Virus record (IMG/VR): IMGVR_UViG_3300023170_002258
Span: 1-52,480 of that record
DNA length: 52,480 bases
Strand: one strand, 5' to 3'
Origin: a virus
The position numbers and the translations under genes are program-made. Of this stretch, positions 3,779 to 30,694 are shown piece after piece. The notes beneath the pieces were generated by a model that was given only the letters and a program-made list of their open reading frames with translations, was not told where the DNA came from and searched no databases. Positions within the stretch are counted from its first letter, which is position 1; every line of letters begins with the position of its first letter.

Positions 3779-4675
3779 ATGCGAATAGCAATTACCGGAG
3801 GTGCCGGCTATATAGGCTGCAGACTTAGTGAATATTTTCTACAACAAGGACACACAGTTGACTGCATCGATTGGCTTAAATGGGGTGTAGAGCCTGTACT
3901 AAACATTGTAGATCATCCTCGTTTCCATTTGCACAAAATAGATATTTGTACACCAGAAGTTGAACCTTTACTAGCACAAGCTGATGCTGTAGTACACTTA
4001 GCAGGTATCATTGGTTTTCCTGCATGTAATGCCGAGCCTGATCTTGCTTACAGAATTAATGTAGAAGGTACTAAAAGAGTCGTAGATGCAAGTGCAGATA
4101 AACCTTTTGTGTATGCAAGTACTGGAAGCGTATACGGTGCATTAGATAGCATATGTACAGAAGAAGCTCCAACTAATCCTATTAGTACGTACAGTGTATA
4201 TAAAATTGTAGGAGAAGAATATTTACAAGGTTCAGATGCTGTGATACTTAGACCTGCTACTGCATTTGGTGTTAGTAATAGATTGCGTAATGATTTATTA
4301 ATCAATGACTTTGTGCGCAAGGCATGTATGAATGAGCACATGACACTATTTGAAGGACATTTCAAACGAACTTTTATCAGTGTAAATGATCTTGTACGCA
4401 GTTTTGCGTGGGGTGTCGAAAAATACGACGACATGAAAGGACAAGTCTGGAATGTAGGTGATGAAACACTAAATCATACTAAACTAGAAATATGCGAAAC
4501 GATTAAAAAACACATACCTACATGGACATATGATGTAAACAATACACTAGCTCATGACCAAGACGGCAGAAATTATTTTGTTGATTATACTAAAATACGT
4601 AAACTAGGATTTACTGCAAATGAAACATTAGATCAAGGAATACAAAACTTAATTAAAGTTTATCGTACCATCTAG
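3779..4675 (+). CDS. NAD-dependent sugar epimerase/dehydratase (extended SDR)
   Basis: A 298-residue extended short-chain dehydrogenase. It has the Rossmann motif GGAGYIG (residues 7-13), an acidic residue ending the second strand (CIDW), NVEGT, a STGSVYG strand carrying the catalytic Ser/Thr, and YSVYK as the YxxxK pair. It should act on an NDP-sugar as a 4-epimerase, dehydratase or reductase. AAGGA at 3766-3770, about eight bases upstream, is a good ribosome binding site. Its last 23 bases overlap the end of the convergent aminotransferase gene, so no terminator fits between them. Confidence 0.9.
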   Translation: MRIAITGGAGYIGCRLSEYFLQQGHTVDCIDWLKWGVEPVLNIVDHPRFHLHKIDICTPEVEPLLAQADAVVHLAGIIGFPACNAEPDLAYRINVEGTKRVVDASADKPFVYASTGSVYGALDSICTEEAPTNPISTYSVYKIVGEEYLQGSDAVILRPATAFGVSNRLRNDLLINDFVRKACMNEHMTLFEGHFKRTFISVNDLVRSFAWGVEKYDDMKGQVWNVGDETLNHTKLEICETIKKHIPTWTYDVNNTLAHDQDGRNYFVDYTKIRKLGFTANETLDQGIQNLIKVYRTI

Positions 4676-6797
4676 TATGATGATCGTCAACAACATTTGT
4701 GTGATTTCGCAATAATAACGTTGACATATCTCCCCAGATTTGTTCAGATTCTGATGAAAATTTCATTGAATAATTATTGTCTAAGAAAAAATCAGATACA
4801 GACACTTCCGGCTTAGTATTAAAATGTTCGATATCTGTTGAGATCAAATGTTTTCCGACAAGAGGCGACAAATTACGAGCCAAATGATAATTAGAAATTT
4901 CTTTAGCAAATAAAATAAATCCGTTTTTGTCAAAAAAGTGCGAGTAATCAGGTGAAAATATTTTTCCTTTTATTACCGATCGTGTTATGTTTGAAAACAT
5001 TAGTACAATCGGCGACAAATCCAATTTGACATTTTCAAAATTAAACACTTGATATTTTTTTCCAACTACATTTTCGTCGAATCCTACAAAATTAGTAGTT
5101 GTAGGTCCTAAAAAATTCCATAACGATCCAGTAGCTATACGACCATTGGATGAAATTATTACGTCAGGTCGTGTCCTGAATACATATGAGTTTTCACTTA
5201 AATTATCAAAATAATCTTTAAAAGAATAGTATATTTCATGCGCATGACAAAACGGATTCATCCATTGTAAACTATCAGGTGTAGCAAAATGCTCTATATT
5301 ATTTTGTTTAAAATATTTTTTATGATTTTCTAATTCATAGTATGGATCTATATAAGCAAAGTTTACACTGTCTGCAAAATCGAATACAGTTGTCATATAT
5401 TTTTCAAATTTTTCTTTTTGTAAAACACGAAGAGGTGTTAGTGTAGTATCTGTATTTTGTTTTACTATATCAGTTTTTATAGTTGTCGTATCCGTTACAT
5501 CATAATGATTTGTCCCAATAAAAATGTCAATGGGAACATCATGTTCTTCTTTAGTTTTTTTTATTATATCAACGAAACATTGTTCCCATTCCGCTGTGCC
5601 TACGTATCTCGGCTGCCCTGTAATTACAACTGCTATTCTTTCTACTTCTTTATAAAGAGAATCGTAGTATTTTTTAAATGTTGTTTTTCTATGCTTTTCG
5701 GCATAATAATCTTCAATTACTCCGACAATCTTAATCATATCATTGTCGTCTAGATTAGACTGTCCGGGAAGTTGTATGCCTCTTTCGTAAACATAGTTTG
5801 TATTTGGAGTATCTGTTTTCCATGCACTATGAAAAGGCTGGCTACTTAAACTTTGATAAACACTTCTGTTACCTATATCAAATTCCGATAGTTTTTTCAT
5901 AAGCGGATACTTGTCGGCTGGATCTTTTACTAAAATGTCCGGATACGTTACTGTTGTGAATCTATCGTTAGTTTCAGGAATCATAATGTCTCCACGAATT
6001 ACTAAAGGCATTAAACCATGTCTATATTGATTATAAATTCCTTTTTTTCTTTTTACAATGTCAGGAAATTTTTTCATTTGCTCTACACCAAACGCTGCTT
6101 GTAAATCTGTAAATTTAAAATTCATTCCCATTACATTATAAGTTTCGCCGGTTACTCCTACACTTCTGCCAAAGTTTTTTATTGCAAAAATACGATCAGA
6201 AAGTTCTTTACTATTAGTTACAATACAGCCGCCTTGTCCTGTAGTAATTATCTTAGGTGCTCCAAAACTGAATACACCCAAATCTCCCATTGTTCCGCAG
6301 TGCTTATGAGTAATAGACCAACTACCTAATGCTTGTGCAGCATCTTCAATAACAAAGTGTCCTTTATCCTTTAGTTTTTTTATTTTATCTTCAATATCCG
6401 GAGGATACCTGCCGTTAATACTACTAATAAACACAACTCTACAATCTTTAGGTATGTTATTAAAATCGATAGTATGATAAACTGGATCAATGTCGACGAA
6501 TACCGGCTTGGCACCCATTAGTATTGCACCATTAACTGTTGCTGCTTGTGTATATGCACTAGCACAAAAAACTTCATCTGGCTTAATATCTGCTACCATA
6601 GATGCAAGTAATAGTCCCGCAGTAGCACTAGGTACCATATGTGCGTACTTTGCTTTTGTATAATCGCAAATCAACTTTTCTAATTCTCTAGTTTTTGTAT
6701 GCTCCATAATCCAACCTTCGCTGTTAATATAATTAACAACGCTTTCGATTTCTTCACTTCCGTATACAGGATTCATATGACTGTTAGGTGTTATCAT
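4653..6797 (-). CDS. DegT/DnrJ/EryC1-family aminotransferase fused to a glycosyltransferase-like domain
   Basis: A two-domain protein of 714 residues from ATG 6797 (a TTG at 6821 would add eight). The first 370 or so residues are a sugar aminotransferase: VIEDAAQALGS binds the cofactor, and SFGAPKIITTGQGG carries the PLP lysine (Lys182 from this start). It should convert an NDP-4-ketosugar to the amino sugar. From about residue 387 a second domain begins with RIAVVITGQPRYVG and contains VFRTRPDVII; this resembles WavE-type or related glycan-synthesis domains, but weakly. DegT proteins normally end near 370-400 residues, so the fusion is unusual. It overlaps the epimerase gene upstream by 14 bases. 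Confidence 0.87.
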   Translation of the reverse strand: MITPNSHMNPVYGSEEIESVVNYINSEGWIMEHTKTRELEKLICDYTKAKYAHMVPSATAGLLLASMVADIKPDEVFCASAYTQAATVNGAILMGAKPVFVDIDPVYHTIDFNNIPKDCRVVFISSINGRYPPDIEDKIKKLKDKGHFVIEDAAQALGSWSITHKHCGTMGDLGVFSFGAPKIITTGQGGCIVTNSKELSDRIFAIKNFGRSVGVTGETYNVMGMNFKFTDLQAAFGVEQMKKFPDIVKRKKGIYNQYRHGLMPLVIRGDIMIPETNDRFTTVTYPDILVKDPADKYPLMKKLSEFDIGNRSVYQSLSSQPFHSAWKTDTPNTNYVYERGIQLPGQSNLDDNDMIKIVGVIEDYYAEKHRKTTFKKYYDSLYKEVERIAVVITGQPRYVGTAEWEQCFVDIIKKTKEEHDVPIDIFIGTNHYDVTDTTTIKTDIVKQNTDTTLTPLRVLQKEKFEKYMTTVFDFADSVNFAYIDPYYELENHKKYFKQNNIEHFATPDSLQWMNPFCHAHEIYYSFKDYFDNLSENSYVFRTRPDVIISSNGRIATGSLWNFLGPTTTNFVGFDENVVGKKYQVFNFENVKLDLSPIVLMFSNITRSVIKGKIFSPDYSHFFDKNGFILFAKEISNYHLARNLSPLVGKHLISTDIEHFNTKPEVSVSDFFLDNNYSMKFSSESEQIWGDMSTLLLRNHTNVVDDHHTRWYDKL

Positions 6798-7674
6798 AAT
6801 ACCACTTATATGTTTTTTCAAATGCTTCTTCTAATGTAAATTCTTGCTGCCATCCAAGATTTTTAAGTTTAGAATTATCAATTGACCTATTTTTTATTCC
6901 TTCAGGTCTTTCTGTATTAAACCACATGTTACCGTTAAAGCCACTGACTGATAATAATGTTTCAGCTATTTCTCTAATAGTAACTTCTTTACCACTTGCA
7001 ACGTTTACATTATTATACTTATTATTATTTAAAATAAGGTCCATTGCATTTACTGCGTCTTCTATATACAATATGTCTCTGCTTTGATTTCCGCTTCCCC
7101 ATATTTCAATTTTTGTATGATTATGTTTAACAGCATCGACAAACTTTTGCATTAGTGCACCGATTACATGAGCATGTTCTCCTGTTCTGTCACCTGGGCC
7201 AAACATGTTAGTACATATTGCAGTGCGCCAATTTGTTTGTCGTTTATCGTTACTTGCCATACACTGATACATTCCTACTAGTTTCGGAAGAGCAGTAGTC
7301 ATATATCCTTCGTAAGGTTTTCCTGTAAGTAACTGTTCTTCTACAAACGGTTGCTCACCAAATTCAGGATAACTACACGTACTTCCTTGTAGCAATACTC
7401 TATTGATATTCAAGTTAGAACAAACTTCAAACAAATTATTTTGAATTTTTAAATTACGTAACATCAATTCGAAGCTTCGATCTAAATCTTCTTGTAATCC
7501 ACCAACGGTTGCTGCATTAATTATGACATGTGTAGGATTAGCATCAGTGATATGTTTTAATGTTTGTGCGTAATCTGTATAATCTACAGTACTTGTATTG
7601 CCGCCTGTTCCGGCAATTTTTTTTGCATAGTTTTTTCCGACAAGCCCTCTGTTTCCTGCATAGTAATACTTCAT
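6784..7674 (-). CDS. GDP-L-fucose-synthase-like epimerase/reductase
   Basis: A 296-residue extended SDR close to GDP-L-fucose synthase (Fcl): AGNRGLVG near the start is the NAD(P) motif, ATVGGL follows, and LLQGSTCSYP and VIGALMQKFVDAV match Fcl blocks. Fcl converts GDP-4-keto-6-deoxymannose to GDP-fucose. One oddity: where Fcl has YAIAK, this protein reads TALPK, so the Lys is kept but the catalytic Tyr position is Thr; a Tyr lies four residues earlier. Either another residue serves, or the reaction differs. It overlaps the methyltransferase fusion upstream by 4 bases (ATGA). Confidence 0.85.
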   Translation of the reverse strand: MKYYYAGNRGLVGKNYAKKIAGTGGNTSTVDYTDYAQTLKHITDANPTHVIINAATVGGLQEDLDRSFELMLRNLKIQNNLFEVCSNLNINRVLLQGSTCSYPEFGEQPFVEEQLLTGKPYEGYMTTALPKLVGMYQCMASNDKRQTNWRTAICTNMFGPGDRTGEHAHVIGALMQKFVDAVKHNHTKIEIWGSGNQSRDILYIEDAVNAMDLILNNNKYNNVNVASGKEVTIREIAETLLSVSGFNGNMWFNTERPEGIKNRSIDNSKLKNLGWQQEFTLEEAFEKTYKWYYDNT

Positions 7675-9140
7675 TTTCTTATCACCAGATAGTCAATATA
7701 TGGATTATCGACAGGAATATTATCAATTTGGAATTGTTTTAAGTAATCTCGTGTTTCGTGATATGCAGGTATTTTATCATATGCCCACGGGTCAGGATTT
7801 ACAATAGCAACTCCATCGTCGGTTAAGTATTCTCTAATATTCTCTACAAAGAATTCCCAATCTTGTTTGTTGTACAAAGTAAAATATGTATGTGTTTTGC
7901 CATCTTCGCCTTTGTTTTGCCAAGATGTGTTAATTTCATTATTGTCATAATGAACAACTTCTTCAGTTTTCCAAAACACGTTTGATTTCATAATAGTTAT
8001 TAAATCATATTTCTTGTCGAGCTCGAATTTTTTATGTGGTCTTATTTCTAATTCTTGTGGAGAAATTCCAAATGCATTCCAAAGTTTATCAAAATATTCA
8101 TTGTAACCTTCTCTATGTACTTTACAATCGGTTGTTTCGATATTAACAAATCCATATTCTTTAACTATAAACGGCATAATACCAAACCATACTCCGATAT
8201 CTAACCATTTAATATTTTTATCTAAATGATCGATGCCAATCGAGTTTAGTGCTGTTAAGTGCACGTTCCAGTAATACATACCTTGATAATTTAAATCGGT
8301 TATTCCTCGAAAGTATTCATTCTCAGGATTTAATTCATACAATGGATCCCAATTATAATTTCCGATAAATTCTTTGTACCATGTACGTAAACTACGACTG
8401 CTTGCTTCCCACAGTTCTTGACATTTTGTTAAATCAAAATTCATTGAAATATTATTTTTTACATAATCACTACTTGACAAATCTAAATCTTCATAGTACA
8501 CAGTTTCTGGATTAAAAAAAGAAAATTCTTCATCAAGCCATTTGTCGTTTTCTCTAACATCATAACAGCATTTAGAGAATATCTTGTAATCTATATCGCC
8601 GATATTATTATCCAACTGATTATTTTTTTCATTATGCCATAGCTGAGATTGTGTCGCTTTGGTCATACTGATGGCTTGCTGTACTTTGTCTTTTCGTTTA
8701 AGGACATAAGTTTTATCAGACATAGTAATCATTTCATGTAATATATGTTCAGGAATACTTTGATACATAATTATTTTAATGCACCAACTATCGTGTAATT
8801 TTTGAATGTTTGTCCATCTTAATTGTTGCTCGGACAATAACTGTTCAAACGAAGGATAACTATACAATCTAATTTTTTCCAAATATTCAGAAAATCCTAA
8901 AAAATGATGTTTTTCTTTGTCAAATTCTGGTTTATTGTTCCATGCCAATTCCCAATTATTTTTATTGATTGCATCTAAAAAAATTTTACTACAGATACTA
9001 AAATCGATACTATCATCTTTTAGTCTAGGTAACAGCATATCTTCGATGTTCATGATTTCAGATAAATCAATGTCAACGGGCTGTATGTTTGAAAAGGCAT
9101 GACTTCCTGTTCTAGGTGCTGCTGCTATTACTATTTTCAT
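7671..9140 (-). CDS. Stf0-like sulfotransferase fused to a class I methyltransferase
   Basis: A 489-residue two-domain protein. The N-terminal half has APRTGSHAF (residues 8-16), a PAPS-binding 5'-loop, and LKRKDKVQQAISMTKATQ (about 147-164) followed by LWH, the 3'-phosphate-binding block typical of Stf0/LPS sulfotransferases. The C-terminal part has WLDIGVWFG (312-320), a slightly altered SAM motif I, then ETTDC as motif II and DGVAIVNPDPW near motif IV. It could both sulfate and methylate the same sugar. No PAPS-making gene is seen in the window, so the host would have to supply it. It overlaps the C-methyltransferase by 29 bases. Confidence 0.78.
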   Translation of the reverse strand: MKIVIAAAPRTGSHAFSNIQPVDIDLSEIMNIEDMLLPRLKDDSIDFSICSKIFLDAINKNNWELAWNNKPEFDKEKHHFLGFSEYLEKIRLYSYPSFEQLLSEQQLRWTNIQKLHDSWCIKIIMYQSIPEHILHEMITMSDKTYVLKRKDKVQQAISMTKATQSQLWHNEKNNQLDNNIGDIDYKIFSKCCYDVRENDKWLDEEFSFFNPETVYYEDLDLSSSDYVKNNISMNFDLTKCQELWEASSRSLRTWYKEFIGNYNWDPLYELNPENEYFRGITDLNYQGMYYWNVHLTALNSIGIDHLDKNIKWLDIGVWFGIMPFIVKEYGFVNIETTDCKVHREGYNEYFDKLWNAFGISPQELEIRPHKKFELDKKYDLITIMKSNVFWKTEEVVHYDNNEINTSWQNKGEDGKTHTYFTLYNKQDWEFFVENIREYLTDDGVAIVNPDPWAYDKIPAYHETRDYLKQFQIDNIPVDNPYIDYLVIRK

Positions 9141-10299
9141 TATCTACTACCTCAAGTGATGGCATTGCGAATATCATTTTGCCGCCTCGTTCTATCCATG
9201 TTTTTTCTTTAGCTAGGAATAAATCTTTAAACCCAAAATTTGGAACAAAAAATACGTCTGCTAATTCTCTTGCATTATTTTCATCCACAATGTGTATATC
9301 TGTCCCTACTGTATATCTGCCAATTTTGTCTGTATGTATTTCTGCTGCGCCTTCAAAACAATTTCCTATATCCCAATATTGCAACATAGTATTTCCTTTG
9401 GTACTAGCACCATATACATAACATTTTTTTCCGGAATTTTTTAATTGTAATAATTTTTCTTTAAGCAAAGCCCCATTGACCTTAACATTATCGAAAAAGT
9501 TGTGCAGTTCCGATACATCTTCTTCATATTGTATACTACCTTTTGTATAATGTCTAGCCCAAATTTGATAACTTCCTCCTTGTATATCGTTTTCTTCTAC
9601 ATGATATATTTCAAGACCGTTGCGTTCGTATAGTTCCACTAAACTTTTATATGTATAGTATTCTAAATGCTCGTGACATATATTTCCTAAATCGCACATT
9701 TTTAACATCGGTGCTAGTGTCATTAACTGTGCAATAAAAACGCCATCCTCACTTAATGAATGCTTAACGCTATTAATAAAATCATTAGGATCATCCATAT
9801 CATAAAACATGCCAATGGCTGTTATAACTTTTGCGAGTTTATTCTCCATGTACTTGTGGTGCCACATATTTGGAATTACTATATCTGCATATTTTGCTAA
9901 ACTATCTGTCAGATTAGGAGCGGGCTCGCATCCTATTTTTAACCTGTCAGGTAAAATTCCGCTTATTAAAGTTCCGTCATTTGCTCCGATATCTAAAACT
10001 ATGTCGTTTGTATCAGTTAATGCGTTTACTTTATTTGCAATATCTAATAAGTTTTGTTTTAATTTTGGATTTAGCCCGCTTTGATACCAGTAATGTTCTC
10101 CGTATAATATGTCCGGATCAACTGTATGTCTTAGTTGAACTAATGTACAATTTGTACATTGATCAATCACAACAGGTGCTGTTCCTTTTGAAATGCCAGG
10201 CTGTTCTGGAAAATCATTAATATGTAACTCTCCCAAATCTGCTACTTGAACAATGCTGCTTTTACAAATGCGACATGTTTTTGCTTCGTTTACTATCAT
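9112..10299 (-). CDS. SAM-dependent sugar C-methyltransferase
   Basis: A 395-residue protein with the three-part layout of NDP-sugar C-methyltransferases (TylC3/NovU type). There is an N-terminal zinc site, CRICK (residues 9-13) with a second pair CTNC near 49-52; a central SAM domain with VLDIGANDGTLI; and a C-terminal domain with YVYGASTKGNTMLQYW. The family adds a methyl group to C3 or C5 of NDP-4-ketosugars. The ATG directly abuts the stop of the sulfotransferase-dehydrogenase gene. The family call is strong; the sugar is unknown. Confidence 0.9.
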   Translation of the reverse strand: MIVNEAKTCRICKSSIVQVADLGELHINDFPEQPGISKGTAPVVIDQCTNCTLVQLRHTVDPDILYGEHYWYQSGLNPKLKQNLLDIANKVNALTDTNDIVLDIGANDGTLISGILPDRLKIGCEPAPNLTDSLAKYADIVIPNMWHHKYMENKLAKVITAIGMFYDMDDPNDFINSVKHSLSEDGVFIAQLMTLAPMLKMCDLGNICHEHLEYYTYKSLVELYERNGLEIYHVEENDIQGGSYQIWARHYTKGSIQYEEDVSELHNFFDNVKVNGALLKEKLLQLKNSGKKCYVYGASTKGNTMLQYWDIGNCFEGAAEIHTDKIGRYTVGTDIHIVDENNARELADVFFVPNFGFKDLFLAKEKTWIERGGKMIFAMPSLEVVDNENSNSSST

Positions 10300-11898
10300 T
10301 TATTCTTTCCATAAATTTATAACAACACTATTACTACTCGGCACGTGTCCATAAAAATCATCGTGTGCTAATACGTAGCAAAGATCTTCTTGTGTTGTTG
10401 GTTCATCTTCCCATGTGACTTGTATATTATGCTTTTGTAATAACTGTTCTACAATCAAACTATAACTTCCTGTAGTATCAGTTGTATTTTTCTTATAAGA
10501 TTTTCCTAATATACGTACTGGTAAATTTGTTTTAATTATGCGCTTAACTAACAATTCGGCTTGTTTAATTCTTGTAATATGATTATTCATTGCTGGATCA
10601 TAATCTAAACAATGTTTGTTACTTAGCCAGCTCATCATTAAATTATCTCTTGGATGACAAGGGCCGCCGTCTCCCCAGCCTGGCAACATATATGCACTAC
10701 TTGTAATTAATTTATTACTATCTGCTAACCATTTCATTATTTGATTACTATTAGCATTTCCAACTGCACGAGACAAGTCTCCTGCCCAGTTAGCAAAGTT
10801 AATTTTTTGAATAATCCAACTGTTATATAATACTTTAGCTAATTCAGCTTCTTCTAACGTACCCTTGTTAACTTTACTATTACTGAATGTAGATAGTAAA
10901 TCTAATACAATACTATCATTGATATTATCCGATCCCAAAAACCAACAATCAGGATTTTGCAATCCGTTTTGTATATCCCCTTGACTTATTAAAAATGGCA
11001 TATAATATAAAGGACCGCTATACTCCAGTTCTCTGCAAGTGCCAGGACTAACTGTGCATCCTACAATAACTGGGGTATTATTAATATTAGACAAAACATT
11101 TTTCAGATTATCTATATTGTAGTCACTCGGCGCATCGTTTACATTATCTCCCCAGCCAACTGTTGGAGTGTCAACACAAATCCAAATTAAATCAGATGAT
11201 AATGTATTATCTAATCCATCTGCATTATTTTTAATATCATACCCTCTAACTTTTACACCGCAACTTTTTAACAAGTTATACAGTGTATTGCCTATATTTC
11301 CTAATCCAATTATTCCTACAGTTTTAAATTGTTTAAAATATAACTGAATATCTTGTTTATAATAAGATCTGATAATATCATGATACTGTGTATTTTCATT
11401 TAAGTATGTTTTGACTTTATTTGAAAATTCATTATCAAGTTGACTGTCTTTAACTTTTATTGGTTGTTTTAATACCTCTATAATTTTATCGATTGTACTA
11501 TGATTTACAGGTTGTAAATTATCTAAATCTAAATAATACTGTATATCATAATTTGCTAAAAAACTACACTGTGTATCCATGTGTACGTCTACACTAATAT
11601 TTTTTTCTAAGTTTGAAAGCACATATTCTATTGAAAAATTTTGGTTAACACATGCTCTCCAAATTTGTCCTGTTATTCTTTTCTCAGGATGACGTATTAT
11701 AGTGAATCCAGTATAACCTGTCAGATCGACATTTTTTTCTAATAAAAATCCAAACTGTTCTGCAATATTATTCATAAAACTGGTATTCGCATTTCTCCAA
11801 ATTGGAATAAAAAATAGTTTTTCACTGTGATTGACCCACACAGAATTATTCCATATTTCCATTTCTACTACTCTGTCTATTACTTCTTTCGGATGCAT
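10300..11898 (-). CDS. Sulfotransferase-like domain fused to a UDP-glucose/GDP-mannose dehydrogenase
   Basis: A 532-residue fusion. Residues 1-185 resemble a sulfotransferase: FIPIWRNANTSF (30-41) sits where the PAPS loop should be, though it lacks the usual Lys-Thr, and IIRHPEKRITGQIWR (67-81) matches the RHP block. Residues 192-532 form an NDP-sugar 6-dehydrogenase: VGIIGLGNIG (194-203), EAELAKVLYN (350-359, with the family Lys and Asn), GGPCHPRD (411-418, catalytic Cys414) and ILGKSYKKNTTDTTGS (463-478). It probably oxidises an NDP-sugar to a uronic acid. The dehydrogenase call is firm; the sulfotransferase call is moderate. The upstream gene's stop overlaps the ATG by one base. Confidence 0.83.
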   Translation of the reverse strand: MHPKEVIDRVVEMEIWNNSVWVNHSEKLFFIPIWRNANTSFMNNIAEQFGFLLEKNVDLTGYTGFTIIRHPEKRITGQIWRACVNQNFSIEYVLSNLEKNISVDVHMDTQCSFLANYDIQYYLDLDNLQPVNHSTIDKIIEVLKQPIKVKDSQLDNEFSNKVKTYLNENTQYHDIIRSYYKQDIQLYFKQFKTVGIIGLGNIGNTLYNLLKSCGVKVRGYDIKNNADGLDNTLSSDLIWICVDTPTVGWGDNVNDAPSDYNIDNLKNVLSNINNTPVIVGCTVSPGTCRELEYSGPLYYMPFLISQGDIQNGLQNPDCWFLGSDNINDSIVLDLLSTFSNSKVNKGTLEEAELAKVLYNSWIIQKINFANWAGDLSRAVGNANSNQIMKWLADSNKLITSSAYMLPGWGDGGPCHPRDNLMMSWLSNKHCLDYDPAMNNHITRIKQAELLVKRIIKTNLPVRILGKSYKKNTTDTTGSYSLIVEQLLQKHNIQVTWEDEPTTQEDLCYVLAHDDFYGHVPSSNSVVINLWKE

Positions 11899-13082
11899 TA
11901 TTTAAAAATTCTTTCTAACTTTTTTACTTCACTATTGTAGTAATTATCATAGTAATGATTCCAATTATACTCGATAGTATCTTTTAATTCTTTACTGTAA
12001 CCCGATTGCCAATCACTATTATACAAGTCAGCAATTGTTCTGATTGCACTATCGATTCTTTCTTTGGCTGTAGGTAGACTATCGTATGATTCATCCCAAA
12101 ACGAATCAAATGTTTTAAATCCCATCTTTTTAATTTCAGCAAGAGAATTTCTATCACCTAAGACTATAAATGGTTTTCTCATTACAATACTTCTGGCAAC
12201 TTTTTCTGTTAAAAACGTTTTAGTGTCGCTACAATTATATTCATTCACAACTTCTAAAAAACAATCTTTACTTTCTATATTTAATTTTACAGCTTCGTCT
12301 ATATATTGATTATCCTGTTTTACATTATACGTATCATCTAAAGATTGTGTGTTATAATAATCTAATATATTAGTATCTACGTCATCTATATCCCACTGTT
12401 TAAGATAATGATTCAAATAATTTAGTTTATCTTCTGTTGTCGACATTGTTTCATCGTAAAAATGAAATGTATATTTCATGTCGTTTATTATTCCTAACTG
12501 AAACAATTTATAAAAACTGTAAAGTCTATGCGGTCTCGGTCTTCTATTAAGAGTGAATATAAATTTTTTAAAAGTTGTAGAATCTAAATCTACCATTAAA
12601 TCTTTAAAAGCAAAGTATCTATTAAACGATTCATGATAATCAATGATAGGAAATTCTTTATAAACAAACGTGTCGTCTATACTAACAGGAGAAGAAAATA
12701 CTGCATATTTTAATAAATTTGCATTCTTTAAATGATTGTATATCCATTTGTAAATATCGTAGCTAACTAAATTTCCACTTAACTCTCCAGATTTTTCTTT
12801 GTTATTACAAAATCCCCACCAATCAACAAAAAAGAAAATTAACTTTATTTTCTTAGATACAATGTCTTCTTTATTTTTTAAAACAATATCTAAAAAATTT
12901 CCTTCTTCGTAATATTTTTTTTGACTAAACACGTCTTGTGTACTATTTGGCAAATGAAAAGGCGTAGATAAAATTAAAAAATTGTCGTAAGATCCATTTA
13001 TATTTGCTAATAAATTTTCATTTTGTGATCTTGATAAATTATCAACAATTCCAAAATGACTGTCAGGATGAAATTTCAACAT
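11898..13082 (-). CDS. Glycosyltransferase-like protein (family uncertain)
   Basis: A protein of 394 residues from ATG 13082; TTG 13118 or ATG 13112 would extend it by up to 12. The C-terminal third carries FLTEKVARSIVMRKPFIVLG and then FKTFDSFWDESYD, a pattern I associate with phage and bacterial glycosyltransferases that bind a nucleotide sugar through a conserved Glu-Lys. The N-terminal half is Asp/Tyr-rich with no motif I recognise. It follows the first radical SAM gene (reading right to left, the last of seven) with a 20-base overlap. Confidence 0.65.
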   Translation of the reverse strand: MLKFHPDSHFGIVDNLSRSQNENLLANINGSYDNFLILSTPFHLPNSTQDVFSQKKYYEEGNFLDIVLKNKEDIVSKKIKLIFFFVDWWGFCNNKEKSGELSGNLVSYDIYKWIYNHLKNANLLKYAVFSSPVSIDDTFVYKEFPIIDYHESFNRYFAFKDLMVDLDSTTFKKFIFTLNRRPRPHRLYSFYKLFQLGIINDMKYTFHFYDETMSTTEDKLNYLNHYLKQWDIDDVDTNILDYYNTQSLDDTYNVKQDNQYIDEAVKLNIESKDCFLEVVNEYNCSDTKTFLTEKVARSIVMRKPFIVLGDRNSLAEIKKMGFKTFDSFWDESYDSLPTAKERIDSAIRTIADLYNSDWQSGYSKELKDTIEYNWNHYYDNYYNSEVKKLERIFK

Positions 13083-14304
13083 TTTGCCAATAATCTCTAA
13101 ATTCTGGAACATAATCAAAAATATTACTGTTTCTAACTTTATCGAGTTTGTTTGTTTCTACTATCATAGTTTCCCATTGATCGATATCTCTTTCGGTAGA
13201 AATAACATAGTCTGCTAAACTTTTAATATTTGTTACTTGCCAATCATTTTTACCTTTAATAGATTGCATTATATCATTATACCCTTTTTGCTTAATCTCA
13301 TATGGCATATGAATGCAATCCATATAACTAGGCTGATTCACTTGAATAACAAATGGAAATTTATACACTATCGGCAATGTTTGACACCAATCTAACAGTT
13401 GTCCAAAATTAAGCCAAGTCAGACTACTCATTGTACTATGTATTTGTAAAATTAGTTTGTCGTTGCCGCCTAACTCTCTTTGCCAATTTATAATTTTATC
13501 TAAGTTTCTCAAAAATTTATCCCATTTTCCAGGATATCTAACATATTCGTTTACTTTTTCAACGCCGTCGCAACTTATATTTGCACTCACTGTTTTAAAA
13601 TTCTTCCATAAATCAAAGTTCTTATCTTGTAATGCTAGTAAATTTGTGTTGAACTGTAGACTTACTTCATGCGATCTTCCGCTATCTACAATACGTTGCA
13701 GTATTTCATAATACTTTTGATTGAATAAAGGTTCTCCTCCTAACATATTTAAATGCTTTATAGTTGGTATAATTTCATCTAACAACTTATCAAATTCTGG
13801 CGTATTATACCATTCAAAATTTAAATTATCAACTTCTGCATTCCAATAGTTTAGTTCCGGATTTTTCTTTATATCTTCAAGCCATAGGCTACTGCTCCAA
13901 GGATTACACATCCTACACTGAATATTACATTTATTACCTAGTGTCATTTCCAAGTACTCAACGTTAACAGTATCCAAAAACTCTCTATTTTGGCTATCTA
14001 TAAATGCATTGTTCCAATCTTGTCTATAGCTGTGACCGCCACCTTGCTCGACTACCCAGCATCTATCGCAAAACGTATGTTTTTTATTTTCGGTAATATC
14101 TTTTCTTAATTCAGTATGTGCTTTTCCGTTAAGTAATTCTGCAATCGAATGACCGTCTTGTACATTTAAAAACTGCCATTGATCTTTAGGAAATGCTTTA
14201 TGATGCTGGTTATAGTTACAACACGGACGAACTTGTCCTACTGGATCTATACTTAAATGATTGAAAGGCAGTACGCAATAAGTGTCTTTATGCATTAGTT
14301 TCAT
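13063..14304 (-). CDS. Radical SAM protein with N-terminal twitch-type iron-sulfur domain (1)
   Basis: A 413-residue radical SAM enzyme. The iron-sulfur/SAM motif is C126-x3-C130-x2-C133 (GNKCNIQCRMC), followed by LGGEPLF. In front of it is an auxiliary cluster domain: Cys10 in YCVLPF, Cys28-Cys29 in VRPCCN and CDRC (79, 82). This is the order of a SPASM/twitch domain but placed at the N-terminus rather than the C-terminus, as in the 'twitch domain-containing radical SAM' group. Such enzymes often act on peptides or sugars; nothing here tells the substrate. It is the most downstream of seven tandem radical SAM genes. Confidence 0.88.
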   Translation of the reverse strand: MKLMHKDTYCVLPFNHLSIDPVGQVRPCCNYNQHHKAFPKDQWQFLNVQDGHSIAELLNGKAHTELRKDITENKKHTFCDRCWVVEQGGGHSYRQDWNNAFIDSQNREFLDTVNVEYLEMTLGNKCNIQCRMCNPWSSSLWLEDIKKNPELNYWNAEVDNLNFEWYNTPEFDKLLDEIIPTIKHLNMLGGEPLFNQKYYEILQRIVDSGRSHEVSLQFNTNLLALQDKNFDLWKNFKTVSANISCDGVEKVNEYVRYPGKWDKFLRNLDKIINWQRELGGNDKLILQIHSTMSSLTWLNFGQLLDWCQTLPIVYKFPFVIQVNQPSYMDCIHMPYEIKQKGYNDIMQSIKGKNDWQVTNIKSLADYVISTERDIDQWETMIVETNKLDKVRNSNIFDYVPEFRDYWQNVEISS

Positions 14305-15286
14305 ATCCCTTTTTAAACTTAGTTATATAAATGTCAGTTCCACAATGACAATGGCTTTTAGGACATGTGATACTGTCTGGCAGATCTAATTCTAAGTTTT
14401 CATCGTATAAGTTTCCTACTCTCGGCATAACTCCGCAACTTCCCATATCAATGTGACCTTCACAATTAATAAAAATACTTTCTGTAGGAATCATACATTT
14501 CCATCCTTTAAAAAAGTTTTTTCCTTCTGCTACTAATCTATTACAGTTAATAGGAAATTCGGTACCATCGCTATAAACTTCTAAACTACCCATGCCGTTC
14601 GCTTTAGCAGGTACATATTCTTTAATGTTTTCTTCTAAATTAGTTGTTTCTAAAAATTTCTTGTGCTCAGGATTTTTATAATTATATGGGCGTGTTGTAT
14701 GACTAAGTTCTTCAAAAATAGGAACATATTCTACACGCCAATTTAAATTTTCATCGTCGCATTCTTGTTTTAGTCTTTTACTAAAGTCTATAACTTCATC
14801 CCAACAAGGCTCATGCATCATCATACGACCGCAGAGATAGTTAACTTTTTTACTTAAGAATTTGTATACTTTTAAGTAATGTTCGGTATCTACATATTCC
14901 GGATGATAGCTTGCAACAACATCGTCGAACAAATGTACATGCTCTTCCCACCAACTTAATTTGTTACTCAGATTGGTGTTTACTGCAAACTTTACTTCAG
15001 ACATTCCAGAATTTTTTATATGCTCAATAATGGGAATTAACGGTTTCCAGTAGCCAGGTTCGCCGCCGCTAAAAAAAACTTTAAGTCTGGTATATCCTTT
15101 TTTTAATTCATAGTCGATAATTTTATCTAAGCCTGCTTTTACTTTATCTGCATCTAAGTTTTTATTACTGCCATTCCAATTCCATTCATTGCAATATGTG
15201 CAACGAAAGTTACATAAATTACTTACTTGCCAAGTAATATTAACAAAAGGATCTCCGCCTTGTACAATTTTTACTAACTCAGACAT
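14288..15286 (-). CDS. Radical SAM protein with C-terminal cysteine-rich domain (2)
   Basis: A radical SAM enzyme of 332 residues. I start it at ATG 15286, with AGGA at 15294-15297 seven bases upstream, rather than TTG 15319. The motif is C25-x3-C29-x2-C32 (SNLCNFRCTYC), with FSGGEPGYW after it. The C-terminal end has several Cys, including a CPKSHCHCGTD group and MGSCG, which suit a SPASM-like auxiliary cluster in the normal position. It is therefore built differently from its N-twitch neighbours. It overlaps the B12-type gene by 8 bases. Confidence 0.87.
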   Translation of the reverse strand: MSELVKIVQGGDPFVNITWQVSNLCNFRCTYCNEWNWNGSNKNLDADKVKAGLDKIIDYELKKGYTRLKVFFSGGEPGYWKPLIPIIEHIKNSGMSEVKFAVNTNLSNKLSWWEEHVHLFDDVVASYHPEYVDTEHYLKVYKFLSKKVNYLCGRMMMHEPCWDEVIDFSKRLKQECDDENLNWRVEYVPIFEELSHTTRPYNYKNPEHKKFLETTNLEENIKEYVPAKANGMGSLEVYSDGTEFPINCNRLVAEGKNFFKGWKCMIPTESIFINCEGHIDMGSCGVMPRVGNLYDENLELDLPDSITCPKSHCHCGTDIYITKFKKGYETNA

Positions 15287-17405
15287 TCCACGTTCCTGTC
15301 CCTTGCCATGTATGTTCAAAACTTAAATCAGTTTCTCGAATTTTAACAAATTCTTTTTTCTGTTGATTAAATTCTTCCATATCAAATGCATTCCAAGGGT
15401 CTCTATTTTTAAAAGTTTCATCGCCTTTCCAAGCAAGTTTTCTTGCTCGTACAGCACTATTACTGTTGTCAGTAAAAAAGTTTACAATACCCCAGACCGG
15501 ACCCCAGGTATCAGGTTCGAAGTGTTCATTGTTGTGCTCATCTGTCCAGACTGAATCATTCCATTTGTAATCTAAATGATCTTGTTGGTATTTCCATTTA
15601 AAATCTGCATTCCAATTTCCATTGTCATCTATTTCAAACAAGTATTCTGCATCAAGAGGCGCTGCAGCACGTGAACCCCATTCGGCATATTCCCATTCAG
15701 GTACAAATAAAAGTTTTAATTTATATCCTCCACGAGCACGCCATACTGTTCTTAAAAATGGCCATATTTCATTTACAAGAGTATTTACAAAGTTTCCTTT
15801 GTCAGTTTTAATAATGTTGTAATCAAAATCATGATAATCATAATCGATTTGATTAAGAGTTTCAGGATTATTAAACTCAATAGTATAGTGACGTTCTGCT
15901 AAATTGTGTCTAGTAGGTTTAGCACATGCAGGATCAGTAACAAGCAAATCTGTAAAGATACTAAACATTTTTTGCTTAACCATTTTATGAACAATGCTAA
16001 GTCCGAAGTCTTCTCTGATCCAATGGTCATAATAGTAAAAATTAGATAAACCAAATCTTTTTAAATTTTGACCTACAATACCATCTACACCAACACCAAA
16101 GCCTGGACCTTGTCCAATAGACAGTAACCCTTTATCACGCTGGCGCCATAAAAATGTTAAGCTATCTTCAAAGTCTACAGGACGTTCATTTGGAAAAGCG
16201 GTAATCCAATTTGTATGTGCTTTAACTCCTGTGATATTACCATCACGAAAATTATCTTCCATTTCTTTAATTGTAACACGTTTATCCATTGCATCTAAAA
16301 CTGACTGTGATCCACTTTCGATACCATAGTTTAATGCATAACATCCACTATCTGCCAATGCCTGATAAAACTCTAAATCCATTCTGCCATCGCAACGTGC
16401 ATACCCAGTCCATTTAATGTCTAGTCCTTCTGCTTTAACACCTTCGGCAAATGCTCTTAGTTCTCTCAGATTTCCGTTTACTAAACTATCTGTAAACTGA
16501 AAAACTCGTGTTCCATAGTTATGATACATAAAACGAACTTCGTCCAGTGTACTAACTGCAGTACGCTGTCTATATTTGTAGTAGTGTGTTTCTTCGCAGA
16601 ATGTGCATTTCGCAGTACATCCTCGACTTATCGCACATAGTGCACCGTTTGCAAATCTATATTCTTCCATTGGAAAATCAGAATAATCTGGAAACGGTAG
16701 ATTGCTTAAATCTAATCTACTATCTATAGCTTGTCGAATAATTAGCGTATCGTTGTTTTTATCCGAGTACGTTATTTCTTTATCAGTTTCAAAACTTTCT
16801 AATAGTTCTAACAAAGGCTTTTCGCCTTCTCCGTTGATTACATAATCATATGAATCCTTTGTTTCGAAATAACTATAGTGTGTGTTTGGACCGCCGATTA
16901 GTATTTTTATATCTGATCGTTTTTTAATCTGATCTATCATATAGTGCACTGGCTCGATATTACAGTAATATAATGAAAAACCAACTACTTCTGGACTAAA
17001 TTCTAATATTTCTTCAATCGCTTCGTCTAATACTGGTTTAACGTATTCATGTAATTCTTCCCAATAGCTATCACCTATCCATTTCCAATCATAAGGACCA
17101 TCCCACGGATTATACCAAAGCGGCCACTTTTCGTTTCTATATTTTAAAAAAGATTTAATATTTAAATCAAATGATTTACATTGATAGCCTGCGCTCTTGA
17201 CTACACCGGACAATCGTGCAATATTATAAGGAGGAAAACTAGGATCCCACTCTGGACACATAACTAAACATAATTTAGTTTTTCTATTAATGTCATATGA
17301 TATGTCTAGTTTTTCTAAACCTCGCTGCGGCTTACCTGCATATTTTTCCATTGCTCGCATGGTTAGTGTACTGCGGTCTTCTAAATACGTACCGTTATCG
17401 CTCAT
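15279..17405 (-). CDS. B12-binding-type radical SAM protein (3)
   Basis: A 708-residue protein. Residues 45-210 look like a cobalamin-binding Rossmann domain (GVVKSAGYQCKSFDLN, VVGFSLYYCNIEP, IKILIGGPNTHYS, YVINGEGEKPLLEL). The radical SAM motif follows at C263-x3-C267-x2-C270 (SRGCTAKCTFCEE). The DxHxxG histidine that coordinates cobalt in many B12 proteins is replaced: residues 80-85 read DLNIKS. The layout is shared by B12-dependent methylases, ring-forming enzymes and MiaB-like relatives. Residues after about 480 form a long C-terminal region rich in Trp and Asp that I do not recognise. It overlaps gene 4 by 11 bases. Confidence 0.88.
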   Translation of the reverse strand: MSDNGTYLEDRSTLTMRAMEKYAGKPQRGLEKLDISYDINRKTKLCLVMCPEWDPSFPPYNIARLSGVVKSAGYQCKSFDLNIKSFLKYRNEKWPLWYNPWDGPYDWKWIGDSYWEELHEYVKPVLDEAIEEILEFSPEVVGFSLYYCNIEPVHYMIDQIKKRSDIKILIGGPNTHYSYFETKDSYDYVINGEGEKPLLELLESFETDKEITYSDKNNDTLIIRQAIDSRLDLSNLPFPDYSDFPMEEYRFANGALCAISRGCTAKCTFCEETHYYKYRQRTAVSTLDEVRFMYHNYGTRVFQFTDSLVNGNLRELRAFAEGVKAEGLDIKWTGYARCDGRMDLEFYQALADSGCYALNYGIESGSQSVLDAMDKRVTIKEMEDNFRDGNITGVKAHTNWITAFPNERPVDFEDSLTFLWRQRDKGLLSIGQGPGFGVGVDGIVGQNLKRFGLSNFYYYDHWIREDFGLSIVHKMVKQKMFSIFTDLLVTDPACAKPTRHNLAERHYTIEFNNPETLNQIDYDYHDFDYNIIKTDKGNFVNTLVNEIWPFLRTVWRARGGYKLKLLFVPEWEYAEWGSRAAAPLDAEYLFEIDDNGNWNADFKWKYQQDHLDYKWNDSVWTDEHNNEHFEPDTWGPVWGIVNFFTDNSNSAVRARKLAWKGDETFKNRDPWNAFDMEEFNQQKKEFVKIRETDLSFEHTWQGTGTWNV

Positions 17406-18663
17406 TGTTTTCCCTATATTGCTTTAAAAAATCTAATTCCGGAATTGCCTGATACCATTTTTCAGATCGTATTTCGTCCCAATTTTCCCATTCAGTAAGA
17501 GTATCGTTTATTAAGCTAGTTAAACTTTGCTTATTTAAAAATTCTACTGTTCCTCTTGCACTTGTTTCCCAATAAGGATCATTTTCATTAACAAATTCAG
17601 GCAACGATACAACGTAGTCGATATAATCATTCCATTTTTTTGTTACAACTTTTTTAAATTCATCAGGCAATACTTGCATACAGAAATATTTAGGATCTAA
17701 TAAATTATTAAGTCGTATGCCATTTGGTTTTACATAACCTAATTCTATCCACTCTTTATGAAAATCTGGCAAATGCCATACGTTCATTATGCTAACTGTA
17801 GGTGTTATTGTAAAGTTAACTTCAGGCGCTTGCTCTAATAACATTTGTCTATTTTTTACAATATCGTTCCATACTGTTCCACTGCGTATGTATTCTGCTC
17901 TTTCATAACTAGCATCTAAACTTGCTGCAACATTTACATTTTTGAATTTTTTCCAAAGATCGATTACATTTTGTCTTTTGTAAAACAACTGACTAAAATT
18001 AGTTGTATAGTTAATTGTCATTACTTCACTTTGGCCAGTTTCGACCCAGTAGTTCATAATATCCCAATGTACATCCGTAATAAGAGGTTCTCCGCCAGCC
18101 CAGTAAACTTCTTCTACTGTGTCTAACAAAGGCCATAGTTCATCCATAAACCCTGGTTTGTTTTTTAATTGTAAAAACTTTTGTTGATCTAATGTTCCGT
18201 ATTTTTCTAAATAATCGTCATACCAGCTAGTACTAAAAATAGGCGAACAAGATCTGCATTTCATATTACACAAATTACTAAACCTAAAATCCATGTATGT
18301 AAAATTAGGATTGTTATGAGTTCCATCTTCTTTTGTATCTAGCACTTCATCAAACTTATGTCCAAATTTGTTATTCATATTTTTTCTTAGTGTATATGCA
18401 TCTGCGTCGGCTTCAAGTTCGTAGCACCGTTTACATGTTTCACTAGGACAATCGGACAACATGTTTTTTCTTAGCTCTTTGGCAAGATTGCTGTTCCAAA
18501 GTTCTTTTATAGTACTAATATTTGTATTACCATAATTTTCTAATGCAGGATCACTTAAACAACACGGAAACGAAGTGCCGTCGGGCCATACATGCATATG
18601 TATCCACGGTGCCATGCAAAAATTTTTACTTTCTGACAGCAAGTATTCTTTGTCAATTTTCAT
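17395..18663 (-). CDS. Radical SAM protein with N-terminal twitch-type domain (4)
   Basis: A 422-residue enzyme with motif C132-x3-C136-x2-C139 (SNLCNMKCRSC) and AGGEPLI after it. The N-terminal auxiliary domain is clear: FCMAPWIHMHVWPDGTSFPC (residues 15-34), Cys35, ISTIKELWNS, then C72, C77 and C80. The PDG and ELWNS elements are classic SPASM-domain features in an N-terminal position. It overlaps neighbours by about 11 bases on each side. The substrate is unknown. Confidence 0.88.
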   Translation of the reverse strand: MKIDKEYLLSESKNFCMAPWIHMHVWPDGTSFPCCLSDPALENYGNTNISTIKELWNSNLAKELRKNMLSDCPSETCKRCYELEADADAYTLRKNMNNKFGHKFDEVLDTKEDGTHNNPNFTYMDFRFSNLCNMKCRSCSPIFSTSWYDDYLEKYGTLDQQKFLQLKNKPGFMDELWPLLDTVEEVYWAGGEPLITDVHWDIMNYWVETGQSEVMTINYTTNFSQLFYKRQNVIDLWKKFKNVNVAASLDASYERAEYIRSGTVWNDIVKNRQMLLEQAPEVNFTITPTVSIMNVWHLPDFHKEWIELGYVKPNGIRLNNLLDPKYFCMQVLPDEFKKVVTKKWNDYIDYVVSLPEFVNENDPYWETSARGTVEFLNKQSLTSLINDTLTEWENWDEIRSEKWYQAIPELDFLKQYRENNER

Positions 18664-19957
18664 GTTTTTCTTTATCCAATTCGAATATATGTTTGTTTAA
18701 CCTGTCAAACGTCACACGCCAATCTGTCTTGCGACTTTTATCTAACGTGTCATTATAGTGTACAAATTTTTTTCTTAATTCTTTTGCATGTTCTTCTGTA
18801 TGAAAATCGCTTTCTAAAAATTTTATAATTTGAGTTAATCCATGCTTCCAATAAGTATTATCAATCTCAGAATTTTCATTTAAGTACATACTTAATTTAT
18901 TTATAACATAATTTTTATTGGCTTTTGGCAAAATACGAGCGTCTAGATATTTTGGATTTTCTAATATAATAGGACTCCAAATATATACTCGCTCAGACTC
19001 TGCTTTATGATATGATCGATGTAACTTTACCCAATCAATTATATTAGTTATATTGTCATAATTATATACTTGAAATACAGTGTAGTGTTTAATTATCCAG
19101 TTAGTAGGAAACTTGTAGTACAACTTCACAATATTTTCTTCTACGTGTTTCCATTGAGTAGGATATCGTATATAATGATTTCTTTCAAACACATCGTCTA
19201 TACTAATCTGTATTTCGCCATGTTTAAATTTACTCATAGTGTTGAAAAATTCTTCGTTGTAGTTTGTTAAATTAGTAGTAAGTGCAATATAACAATCAGT
19301 ATTACCGCTATCTAAAATATAATTCATAATTTCTATATTTTTTGCTATCAGAGTAGGTTCTCCACCAGTTAAATATAGTCTTTTTAATGAAGGTGCTAAT
19401 TTTTCTATTGTACTTAAAAACGTAGGATTTTCCCACCAACGCCATTCTTGTTGGTCTGCCAAATTGACTTCTTTGCTCCATTCTTCCAAGAGCCAATCAT
19501 TTTCAGATTGTTGTTTGATTAGTTTGTGTCTTTCATCTCTTATACGATCGCTACTTAAACTCCAACAACTGTTGCATCTCAGATTACAAAAATTTCCTAG
19601 TCTTAGTTCTAAACTACTAGGCAATGGAGGATCAACTTTTTTAATTTCTTTTAAGTTATAATCTGCATGTTTAAATTCTTGCCATGCACTTTGCCTAGAA
19701 CTTTGTACCCCGATATCTTCTAAACGCCAGCATACATCACACGCAGAAGGACGTTCACCGTTTAACATTTGCCGACGAACATTTTTCATATATTCACTGT
19801 TCCAGATTTCTTCGATTGAATTTGTTCCAAAATTCAATTCTTTTTTGTCCGAGCCATGAACATGTAGATTTTCGTTTATACTACAGCATAACTTAACACT
19901 ACCTTCGGTATTGCTGTTTAAATTTACAAAAGGATATAGGCAAAATGTATTGCTCAA
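18653..19957 (-). CDS. Radical SAM protein with N-terminal twitch-type domain (5), TTG start
   Basis: A 434-residue enzyme with motif C124-x3-C128-x2-C131 (GNFCNLRCNSC) and LTGGEPTLI. The N-terminal cluster Cys are C6, C24-C25 and C73/C76 (CDVCW), with SIEEIWNSEYMKN between. Translation must start at TTG 19957: no ATG lies before the Cys6 segment, the TTG overlaps the previous gene's TGA (TTGA), and GGAG stands at 19965-19968, seven bases upstream. This points to coupled translation. Confidence 0.87.
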   Translation of the reverse strand: MSNTFCLYPFVNLNSNTEGSVKLCCSINENLHVHGSDKKELNFGTNSIEEIWNSEYMKNVRRQMLNGERPSACDVCWRLEDIGVQSSRQSAWQEFKHADYNLKEIKKVDPPLPSSLELRLGNFCNLRCNSCWSLSSDRIRDERHKLIKQQSENDWLLEEWSKEVNLADQQEWRWWENPTFLSTIEKLAPSLKRLYLTGGEPTLIAKNIEIMNYILDSGNTDCYIALTTNLTNYNEEFFNTMSKFKHGEIQISIDDVFERNHYIRYPTQWKHVEENIVKLYYKFPTNWIIKHYTVFQVYNYDNITNIIDWVKLHRSYHKAESERVYIWSPIILENPKYLDARILPKANKNYVINKLSMYLNENSEIDNTYWKHGLTQIIKFLESDFHTEEHAKELRKKFVHYNDTLDKSRKTDWRVTFDRLNKHIFELDKEKHEN

Positions 19958-21609: not shown

Positions 21610-23062
21610 TATACTTTTCTTTCCATTCTAAAAATGTATCAGTAAATTCTGGAAAAACATTTTTGAAATTCGTATTTCTTCTTTTGTCGTGTTCTTGAAA
21701 AAATCTAACAAAATTTTCTTCTGCTTCTTCTCGTTCAGTTGAATTATCGAATCCTTGTTTCATAAATTCAATGCTTCTGTCAAATCTTTCAATTTGGTGC
21801 GGCTTAAACCCAACCCATCTGCTTTCTCTGTGTTTATCCGTATTTGCTTTCATAAAATCTAAAGCGTCATCAGCATAGTGCCAGTATTTCTCAGGAGTGA
21901 GCTGTAAACTTTGCCAATGAGGATATCTCAACATAGGAGTATCAATGAATACTTTATGATGTCCATAAACAATAATATTTCCGTTTTTATCACGTCTGCT
22001 TTTACTAACATTATGAACTCGTTGTAGTTCTAATATACCTTTTAATAACTTTTGTATACTAGGCAAACTTAACATATTAAATGTGACAATAAATGTAACA
22101 AGGCCTTCGTCTACTCTACTTAGATAATTATGAACATTATTCCACATACGATCAAAATCTAATCCATGTCTGATGTACTCTGCTTGATCACCCCAGCCAT
22201 CTAAACTGACAAATATTCTAAAACGTTTTAATTTTTTGTGTTCACTAATAAAGCTAACTTTATCAACAAAATTATTCCACAGCTTGTCAGGAACACTAGC
22301 ATTAGTAGTTACTGCTATTTCTAAATCTTCTCGTGGATTATCGATAACATGATCTAATACACGAAATGTATTTTTATCCATCAAAGGCTCGCCGCCTGTC
22401 ATTCTGAAGTTCTGTAGTTTAGGATATAATTCAGGCCACCATTTCCAAAATGCGTCTACATATGGATTTTCTTCTCTATTTGGAATCGGATATTGATTAA
22501 TTTGTTTAAAATAATCTATACTATTATGAGGAACAATTGTAGGATAAGGTCCATTTTGTTCGATATCTTCTGCCCACTTTGAACTTAAATGCGGACTACA
22601 ATAGCTACATGCTAAGTTACATGCGTGATTAAAATTAATTTCCATAAAACGAGGCTCAATATCCCCATCGGGTCCTTTTTCCAATACATCATCCCATCCA
22701 GCTTGTGCCCATGGCTCCGACGAACGATAATGTCGATCACTTAAAAAGTCTCGGCCCATCGATTCAATATTCCAACAGTAACTACATCCGTCAGGCTTTT
22801 CACCTCGCATCATCATATTACGTTGTTCTTTTTTCTCAGGAGTATTATGCAAACCTTTTGGATTATTAACAATATTTTTTGGATCAATTTTATGTATTGG
22901 AGGCAAGAAGCAACTGTTAGTTGTTCCATTGGTTAAATGAATACTAGTCCATAGCCATTTTGCCATGCACATACTTGGACTAATTTTATTTAATTCTGGA
23001 GCAATTTTTTCTGCTGCTATTTGTGGATCTGGATCTACTTCGAAATTATTTTTATTTGTCAT
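21602..23062 (-). CDS. Radical SAM protein with N-terminal twitch-type domain (7)
   Basis: A 486-residue enzyme with motif C148-x3-C152-x2-C155 (NHACNLACSYC) and MTGGEPLMD. The N-terminal Cys are C32, C51 and C93/C96 (CSYCW). It is paralogous to gene 6, sharing the LHNT, CxYCW, YCxPxxSxxW, PYVDAFWKWWPEL and HDKRRNTNFKNVFPEF segments. It is the first of the seven radical SAM genes in transcription order, directly after the nucleotidyltransferase-cupin fusion, which it overlaps by four bases (ATGA). Confidence 0.88.
   Translation of the reverse strand: MTNKNNFEVDPDPQIAAEKIAPELNKISPSMCMAKWLWTSIHLTNGTTNSCFLPPIHKIDPKNIVNNPKGLHNTPEKKEQRNMMMRGEKPDGCSYCWNIESMGRDFLSDRHYRSSEPWAQAGWDDVLEKGPDGDIEPRFMEINFNHACNLACSYCSPHLSSKWAEDIEQNGPYPTIVPHNSIDYFKQINQYPIPNREENPYVDAFWKWWPELYPKLQNFRMTGGEPLMDKNTFRVLDHVIDNPREDLEIAVTTNASVPDKLWNNFVDKVSFISEHKKLKRFRIFVSLDGWGDQAEYIRHGLDFDRMWNNVHNYLSRVDEGLVTFIVTFNMLSLPSIQKLLKGILELQRVHNVSKSRRDKNGNIIVYGHHKVFIDTPMLRYPHWQSLQLTPEKYWHYADDALDFMKANTDKHRESRWVGFKPHQIERFDRSIEFMKQGFDNSTEREEAEENFVRFFQEHDKRRNTNFKNVFPEFTDTFLEWKEKYNV
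22431..22468. repeat. 38-base exact direct repeat, copy 2
   Basis: Second copy of the 38-base repeat, at the matching place in radical SAM gene 7. Flanking bases diverge quickly, which suggests strong protein constraint or recent exchange between the paralogues. Confidence 0.9.
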
Positions 23063-30686: not shown

Positions 30687-30694
30687 TATTTATA
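30687..30694 (-). promoter_or_regulatory. T4-type late promoter box TATAAATA (perfect)
   Basis: TATAAATA on the minus strand at 30687-30694 matches the T4 late consensus at all eight bases. It overlaps the end of the giant gene, with the expected start at about 30681, 17 bases before ATG 30665. It should drive the three smaller virion proteins late in infection. Confidence 0.75.

Follow-up and report, generated by a model that had tools for sequence, protein, structure and literature searches.

A predicted Stf0-type sulfotransferase fused to a methyltransferase-like domain in a sugar gene island of large tailed phages

The Stf0 trehalose 2-sulfotransferase family (PF09037) is represented by structure 1TEX, which according to its title is Stf0 solved with trehalose. 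Its defining residues, as given in the available part of PMC11625862, are an Arg on the 5'-phosphosulfate-binding loop (PSB) and a Ser on the 3'-phosphate-binding (PB) helix. PAPS-type sulfotransferases of another Pfam family, Sulfotransfer_3, are reported from marine phages such as OM43 phages in PMC10580990, the available part of which describes no methyltransferase fusion and states that sulfotransferase function in phages remains unclear. In the glycan island of the lake Synechococcus phage DSL-LC02, a C-methyltransferase family lies among glycosyltransferases, between GDP-mannose dehydratase and GDP-L-fucose synthase. The protein described here, encoded in a 52,480-base IMG/VR virus record (the window, a 52-kb fragment), is like the Stf0 family in its PAPS loop with Arg, its 3'-phosphate block, its YEDL stretch, its C-terminal W motif and the match of the predicted fold of residues 1-247 to 1TEX. 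Unlike that family, it is only 13 to 20% identical to 56 bacterial Stf0 rows and carries a C-terminal methyltransferase-like domain. The latter resembles class I SAM methyltransferases of PF13489 in motif I, in the order of conserved blocks and in its profile-profile match, but the family cut-off is never reached. As for its surroundings, the same C-methyltransferase family adjoins GDP-L-fucose synthase in DSL-LC02, whereas in the window the fusion sits between the C-methyltransferase and the GDP-L-fucose-synthase-like gene; no sulfotransferase is annotated in the 17-kb stretch of DSL-LC02 examined.

Table 1. Features of the fusion gene and its operon neighbours in the window.
Feature	Position	Strand	Basis or remark
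Fusion of predicted Stf0 sulfotransferase and probable class I SAM methyltransferase	7671..9140	(-)	489 aa, ATG start
N-terminal Stf0-type sulfotransferase domain (predicted), residues 1 to about 262	8355..9140	(-)	PF09037, hhalign, AF2 model
5'-phosphosulfate-binding loop (PSB), residues 8-16, APRTGSHAF	9093..9119	(-)	R10 and G12 invariant in 60/60 rows
E28, candidate catalytic Glu	9057..9059	(-)	Invariant in 5 family members; placed by eye
3'-phosphate-binding block, residues 149-168, RxDKxxQAxSxxxAxQxxxW	8637..8696	(-)	Motif pattern and alignment
YYEDL, residues 215-219, matching the conserved YEDL of Stf0 proteins	8484..8498	(-)	Alignment
C-terminal methyltransferase-like domain, residues about 269-489	7674..8336	(-)	hhalign to PF13489 set
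SAM-binding motif I, residues 312-320, WLDIGVWFG	8181..8207	(-)	Translation, family alignment
Second fusion: Sulfotransfer_2-like N half (residues 1 to about 190) and UDP-glucose/GDP-mannose dehydrogenase	10300..11898	(-)	
Upstream partner: sugar C-methyltransferase (Methyltransf_13/23/14)	9112..10299	(-)	Pfam; order kept in 5/5 records
Downstream partner: GDP-L-fucose-synthase-like epimerase	6784..7674	(-)	PF01370
DegT-type sugar aminotransferase with C-terminal extension	4653..6821	(-)	PF01041, 214 bits

The fusion ORF is a single uninterrupted frame that shares 29 bases at its start with the end of the upstream methyltransferase gene and 4 bases at its stop with the following epimerase gene (Table 1). 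The initial annotation had read this frame as an Stf0-type sulfotransferase joined to a methyltransferase, and Pfam, profile-profile comparison with hhalign, and an AF2 model with its structure matches bear this reading out. Translation also places both PAPS blocks (residues 8-16, APRTGSHAF; residues 147-164, LKRKDKVQQAISMTKATQ) and the SAM-type motif (residues 312-320, WLDIGVWFG) where they had been put. The fusion, which was to be sought in other viruses, is present in four further viral contigs. The first close relative, in IMG/VR contig 3300017784_003611, is 56% identical over its full length, and a scan with the C half gave three more contigs, whose members (L131, L132, and L133) are 39 to 40% identical. 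L131 and L132 are nearly identical, so the five members represent three to four lineages. Scanning for close relatives with the window fusion alone gave none, adding the 3300017784_003611 member gave no further relative, and a scan with all five members added none; a scan with the second fusion yielded one extra contig, which breaks off within that gene, two genes before the Stf0 fusion would come. Among the 50,697 phage records of INPHARED, tblastn found no relative of the fusion, and neither its C half alone nor the P0002 N half gave a match. All five family members are encoded in one frame, and the idea of an artefactual fusion, which we considered, was dropped for this reason. Ka/Ks between L131 and L133 is 0.28 for the N half and 0.39 for the C half, and it stays below 0.6 in deeper pairs, where silent sites are near saturation; both halves are under purifying selection. 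The fusion is real, conserved, and coherent, a domain combination that is new in phages and made of known parts. No earlier description of an Stf0-methyltransferase fusion was found among the PMC titles listed.

Profiles and a structure model predict the N half to be a sulfotransferase of the Stf0 family (PF09037). In Pfam, the fusion protein matches PF09037 with 28.7 bits (cut-off 22, E 1.2e-6) over residues 146-179 only, and the relative in G001 (L004) also exceeds the cut-off with 28.6 bits; L131 stays below it at 14.6 bits, and L133 is absent from the PF09037 matches listed. The NCBIfam equivalog for trehalose 2-sulfotransferase (NF047724) scores 22.6 bits, not reaching its cut-off of 400. 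The window has a single match to the 20-residue Stf0 motif pattern, whereas 100 shuffles have none; the pattern was also found in 3 stretches of viral contigs and at least 120 stretches of genome contigs. An Stf0 profile was built from 81 proteins, the bacterial ORFs of 240 to 300 aa among 124 ORFs with the motif (among the matches listed), while 39 of the 120 genome ORFs fell outside this length range and were left out. Against this profile, hhalign gave the N half 97.0% over residues 143-217, while eight control profiles stayed at or below 0.6% and 100 column shuffles at or below 1.4%. Since the set had been chosen by the motif pattern, the motif of the 81 proteins is sharpened by selection.

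Residue by residue, the correspondence was examined in an alignment of 60 rows, consisting of 4 family members (L132 left out) and 56 bacterial rows taken from 59 non-redundant Stf0 ORFs. Every one of the 60 rows has M1, R10, G12, R149, K152, Q155, S158, A162, W168, and W254, indicating a correspondence that extends over the PAPS loop, the 3'-phosphate block, and the C-terminal W motif. The Arg on the PAPS-binding loop is R10 and the Ser on the 3'-phosphate-binding helix is S158, both present in 60/60 rows. Within the block, the branch of L131 to L133 has Ser for D151, Cys for A156, and Tyr for Q164. The catalytic Glu of Stf0 we take to be Glu36, which agrees with the sequence of 1TEX, and E28, kept in all five family members, would be its putative counterpart; MAFFT does not align E28 with the Stf0 Glu. 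The AF2 model of residues 1-275, computed from the 60-row alignment, has a pLDDT of 70.0 and a pTM of 0.65. Both Foldseek matches with E below 0.001 are 1TEX (E 4.3e-4), and VIA-align superposes the model on 1TEX with Z 12.1 and an rmsd of 3.5 over 179 residues, the next matches being kinases with Z 9.8. A sulfotransferase fold for residues 1-260, on which the assignment had been staked beforehand, is not contradicted by the model, which has 1TEX as its best match; Stf0 rows are inside the alignment behind the model, so the fold match is support rather than independent proof.

The C half is, judging from profile comparison, very probably a divergent class I SAM methyltransferase. Its match to a profile of 27 bacterial PF13489 proteins reaches 94.9% in hhalign over 131 columns, with at most 1.1% for eight other profiles and at most 5.8% for 100 shuffles; 3 of the 30 methyltransferase loci fell outside 180 to 350 aa and were left out of the set. 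The relatives L131 and L133 match PF13489 itself with 19.1 to 21.5 bits (E 2e-4 to 1e-3), not reaching its cut-off of 27. The SAM motif is conserved in all five family members. AF2 on the full-length fusion with 5 rows gave a pLDDT of 37.6, a model too poor for the fold to be read. Among the 124 Stf0-motif ORFs (among the matches listed), an HMM of the family C half detected this half only in the window fusion and the G001 relative; a control scan with an HMM of the 27 methyltransferases was insensitive and missed the window fusion too. A C-half scan of 385 and 369 genomes of two bacterial classes, run without a positive control, gave no match at 1e-4.

Both genes flanking the fusion are sugar genes, and the downstream epimerase is 32% identical to the annotated GDP-L-fucose synthase of Synechococcus phage DSL-LC02. 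The order second fusion, C-methyltransferase, Stf0 fusion is kept in 5/5 records, and the epimerase follows the Stf0 fusion in all four records that extend so far. A second sulfotransferase fusion had been claimed in the vicinity of the first, and profile-profile comparison agrees: its N half matches a profile of 12 bacterial PF03567 proteins (1 of 13 loci left out, being over 340 aa) at 90.9% in hhalign, against at most 1.9% for six control profiles and at most 1.8% for shuffles. In Pfam, the PF03567 match is weak and limited to one of the five members of this second family (E 0.0032), the window copy having none. The dehydrogenase half matches PF00984 with 45.2 bits, and its GGPCHPRD stretch is present in 4/4 aligned members. 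The N-half profile matches of the two fusions thus point to two sulfotransferase families, with a different sugar-modifying domain attached to each. A 406-aa gene (11898-13118) immediately precedes the second fusion, a position that it keeps in G001, L131, L132, and L133; neither Pfam nor INPHARED gave a significant match for it. The DegT gene differs in layout between related phages: its DegT domain is N-terminal in the window (residues 23-369 of 722) and in G001 (16-357 of 766) and C-terminal in L131 (394-727 of 733; L131 7854-10055), so that the domain order is swapped.

We favor, with a probability of roughly 0.63, a glycan-tailoring enzyme with two activities, encoded by a large tailed phage of marine type; it would sulfate and O-methylate a phage-directed glycan. 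The Stf0-fold domain would bind PAPS through the loop with R10, G12, and S13 and the helix with R149, K152, and S158, and would transfer the sulfate onto a sugar or glycan hydroxyl; SAM would be bound by the C-terminal class I domain, which would O-methylate the same product at another position. The fusion would act in a translationally coupled operon with the second fusion, the C-methyltransferase, the epimerase, and the DegT aminotransferase, partners that would build the sugar. We infer the PAPS-dependent sulfation, the SAM-dependent O-methylation, the sugar acceptor, and the destination of the product on the virion or host surface; lying as it does among sugar-building genes, the fusion may aid the virus in producing sugars that bear both sulfate and methyl groups, and a glycan with both is the chemical prediction. 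Two sulfotransferase families, each fused to a sugar-modifying enzyme and two genes apart across several phages, form a concrete gene set. A broader generalization, that large marine phages have a full set of genes for their own sulfated, C- and O-methylated sugar, displayed on virions or the host surface, with sulfation coupled by fusion to methylation or sugar oxidation, is offered tentatively, and we consider it rather doubtful. If true, a phage sugar on the virion or host surface might, for example, block superinfection or allow escape from grazing.

Gene order is the strongest reason for a sugar acceptor, and the radical-SAM array upstream is the strongest reason to doubt it. The fusion might instead add sulfate and methyl to a peptide or other small natural product that the upstream radical SAM/SPASM enzymes would mature. 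Genes of the radical SAM kind (three by Pfam, four by eye) lie just upstream on the same strand, and in G001 a similar array was seen by eye ahead of the fusion. We regard such an acceptor as unlikely, though the least improbable of the alternatives, given that in every record seen the fusion is bordered by a sugar gene at either end and that the ligand in 1TEX, trehalose, is a sugar. Somewhat less likely still is that either domain, or both, lacks activity and acts in binding or as a scaffold, an idea that the altered 3'-phosphate block of the L131-L133 branch and the divergence of the SAM half would fit; it is opposed by the retention of eight residues of the loop and block (R10, G12, R149, K152, Q155, S158, A162, and W168) in 60/60 rows and of E28 and the SAM motif in 5/5 members.

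Doubt about the C half takes a different form, namely that it could be a Rossmann-type domain other than a methyltransferase. The window's own fusion protein has no Pfam methyltransferase match; PDB sequence searches with the fusion protein and with profiles returned nothing significant, the best methyltransferase having E 0.083 in a profile search; and hhalign found no match to two methyltransferase profiles from these phages, that of the neighboring C-methyltransferase (1.1%) and that of a G006 protein called a methyltransferase by eye (0.7%), both of which were among the eight controls and were small (4 rows and 1 row). Where PF13489 gives 94.9%, however, two epimerase profiles give 0.1% and 0.5% and the dehydrogenase fusion 0.4%, and we hold this third alternative to be quite improbable.

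For PAPS supply, the initial annotation had noted no PAPS-forming genes, and indeed the APS kinase and ATP sulfurylase profiles have no match in the 52-kb window, a fragment of what may be a larger genome; the proposed dependence on host PAPS is plausible. An APS-kinase-family (PF01583) match appears in 2 of 7 records (G004 and G006), about 8 to 10 kb from the fusion, with 33 to 34 bits (cut-off 21.1) over a partial stretch of the profile (4-91 of 152), and the protein's score as a generic AAA kinase is almost equal. Relatives that are 41 to 50% identical occur in 5 phage records, of Stenotrophomonas, Xanthomonas, and Clavibacter phages, and in the one record examined the gene adjoins NADAR and DNA methyltransferase genes. 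A phage-borne PAPS supply is accordingly rejected or at least weakened by the ambiguity of the kinase, its near-equal AAA score, and its NMN-adenylyltransferase-like and NADAR neighbors; the closest phage relatives point elsewhere, so the kinase of G004 and G006 proves nothing about dependence on host PAPS. In G006 (L143 12804-13662), the APS-kinase-type P-loop kinase overlaps the NMN-adenylyltransferase-like gene.

Genes for a carbamoyltransferase, the DegT aminotransferase, and nucleotidyltransferases belong to the island too, as does another epimerase-like gene. Sulfation had been proposed as a main theme of the island, which is overstated: two sulfotransferase fusions are there, but most neighbors are nucleotide-sugar, glycan, and radical-SAM genes. 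Seven tandem radical-SAM-like genes occupy 13063-23062 on one strand, of which 13063-14304, 14288-15319, and 15279-17405 were tested with Pfam and the other four were recognized by eye; similar arrays were seen by eye in G001 and G006. One radical-SAM gene has distant homologues, about 22 to 23% identical among the matches listed, in 24 INPHARED records, 23 of which are Vibrio phages. The gene at 23059-23829 joins a cytidylyltransferase-like domain to a cupin of the mannose-6-phosphate-isomerase type. In the island of G006 (L143 10036-12528), a ribulose-phosphate 3-epimerase, a nucleotidyltransferase-like protein, and an SIS-domain protein stand together, the last being most like the 6-phospho-3-hexuloisomerase HxlB while staying below the HxlB cut-off.

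The other half of the window encodes baseplate and virion genes of a tailed phage. Its gp6-like wedge protein matches 62 of the 50,697 phage records, and the 15 matches listed are large phages, including Atu_ph07, SCTP-2, and PA5oct, with 36 to 42% identity. The phage is presumably of marine origin, judging from metagenome numbers. Amid the virion genes lies a single ORF of 3735 aa (30690-41897).
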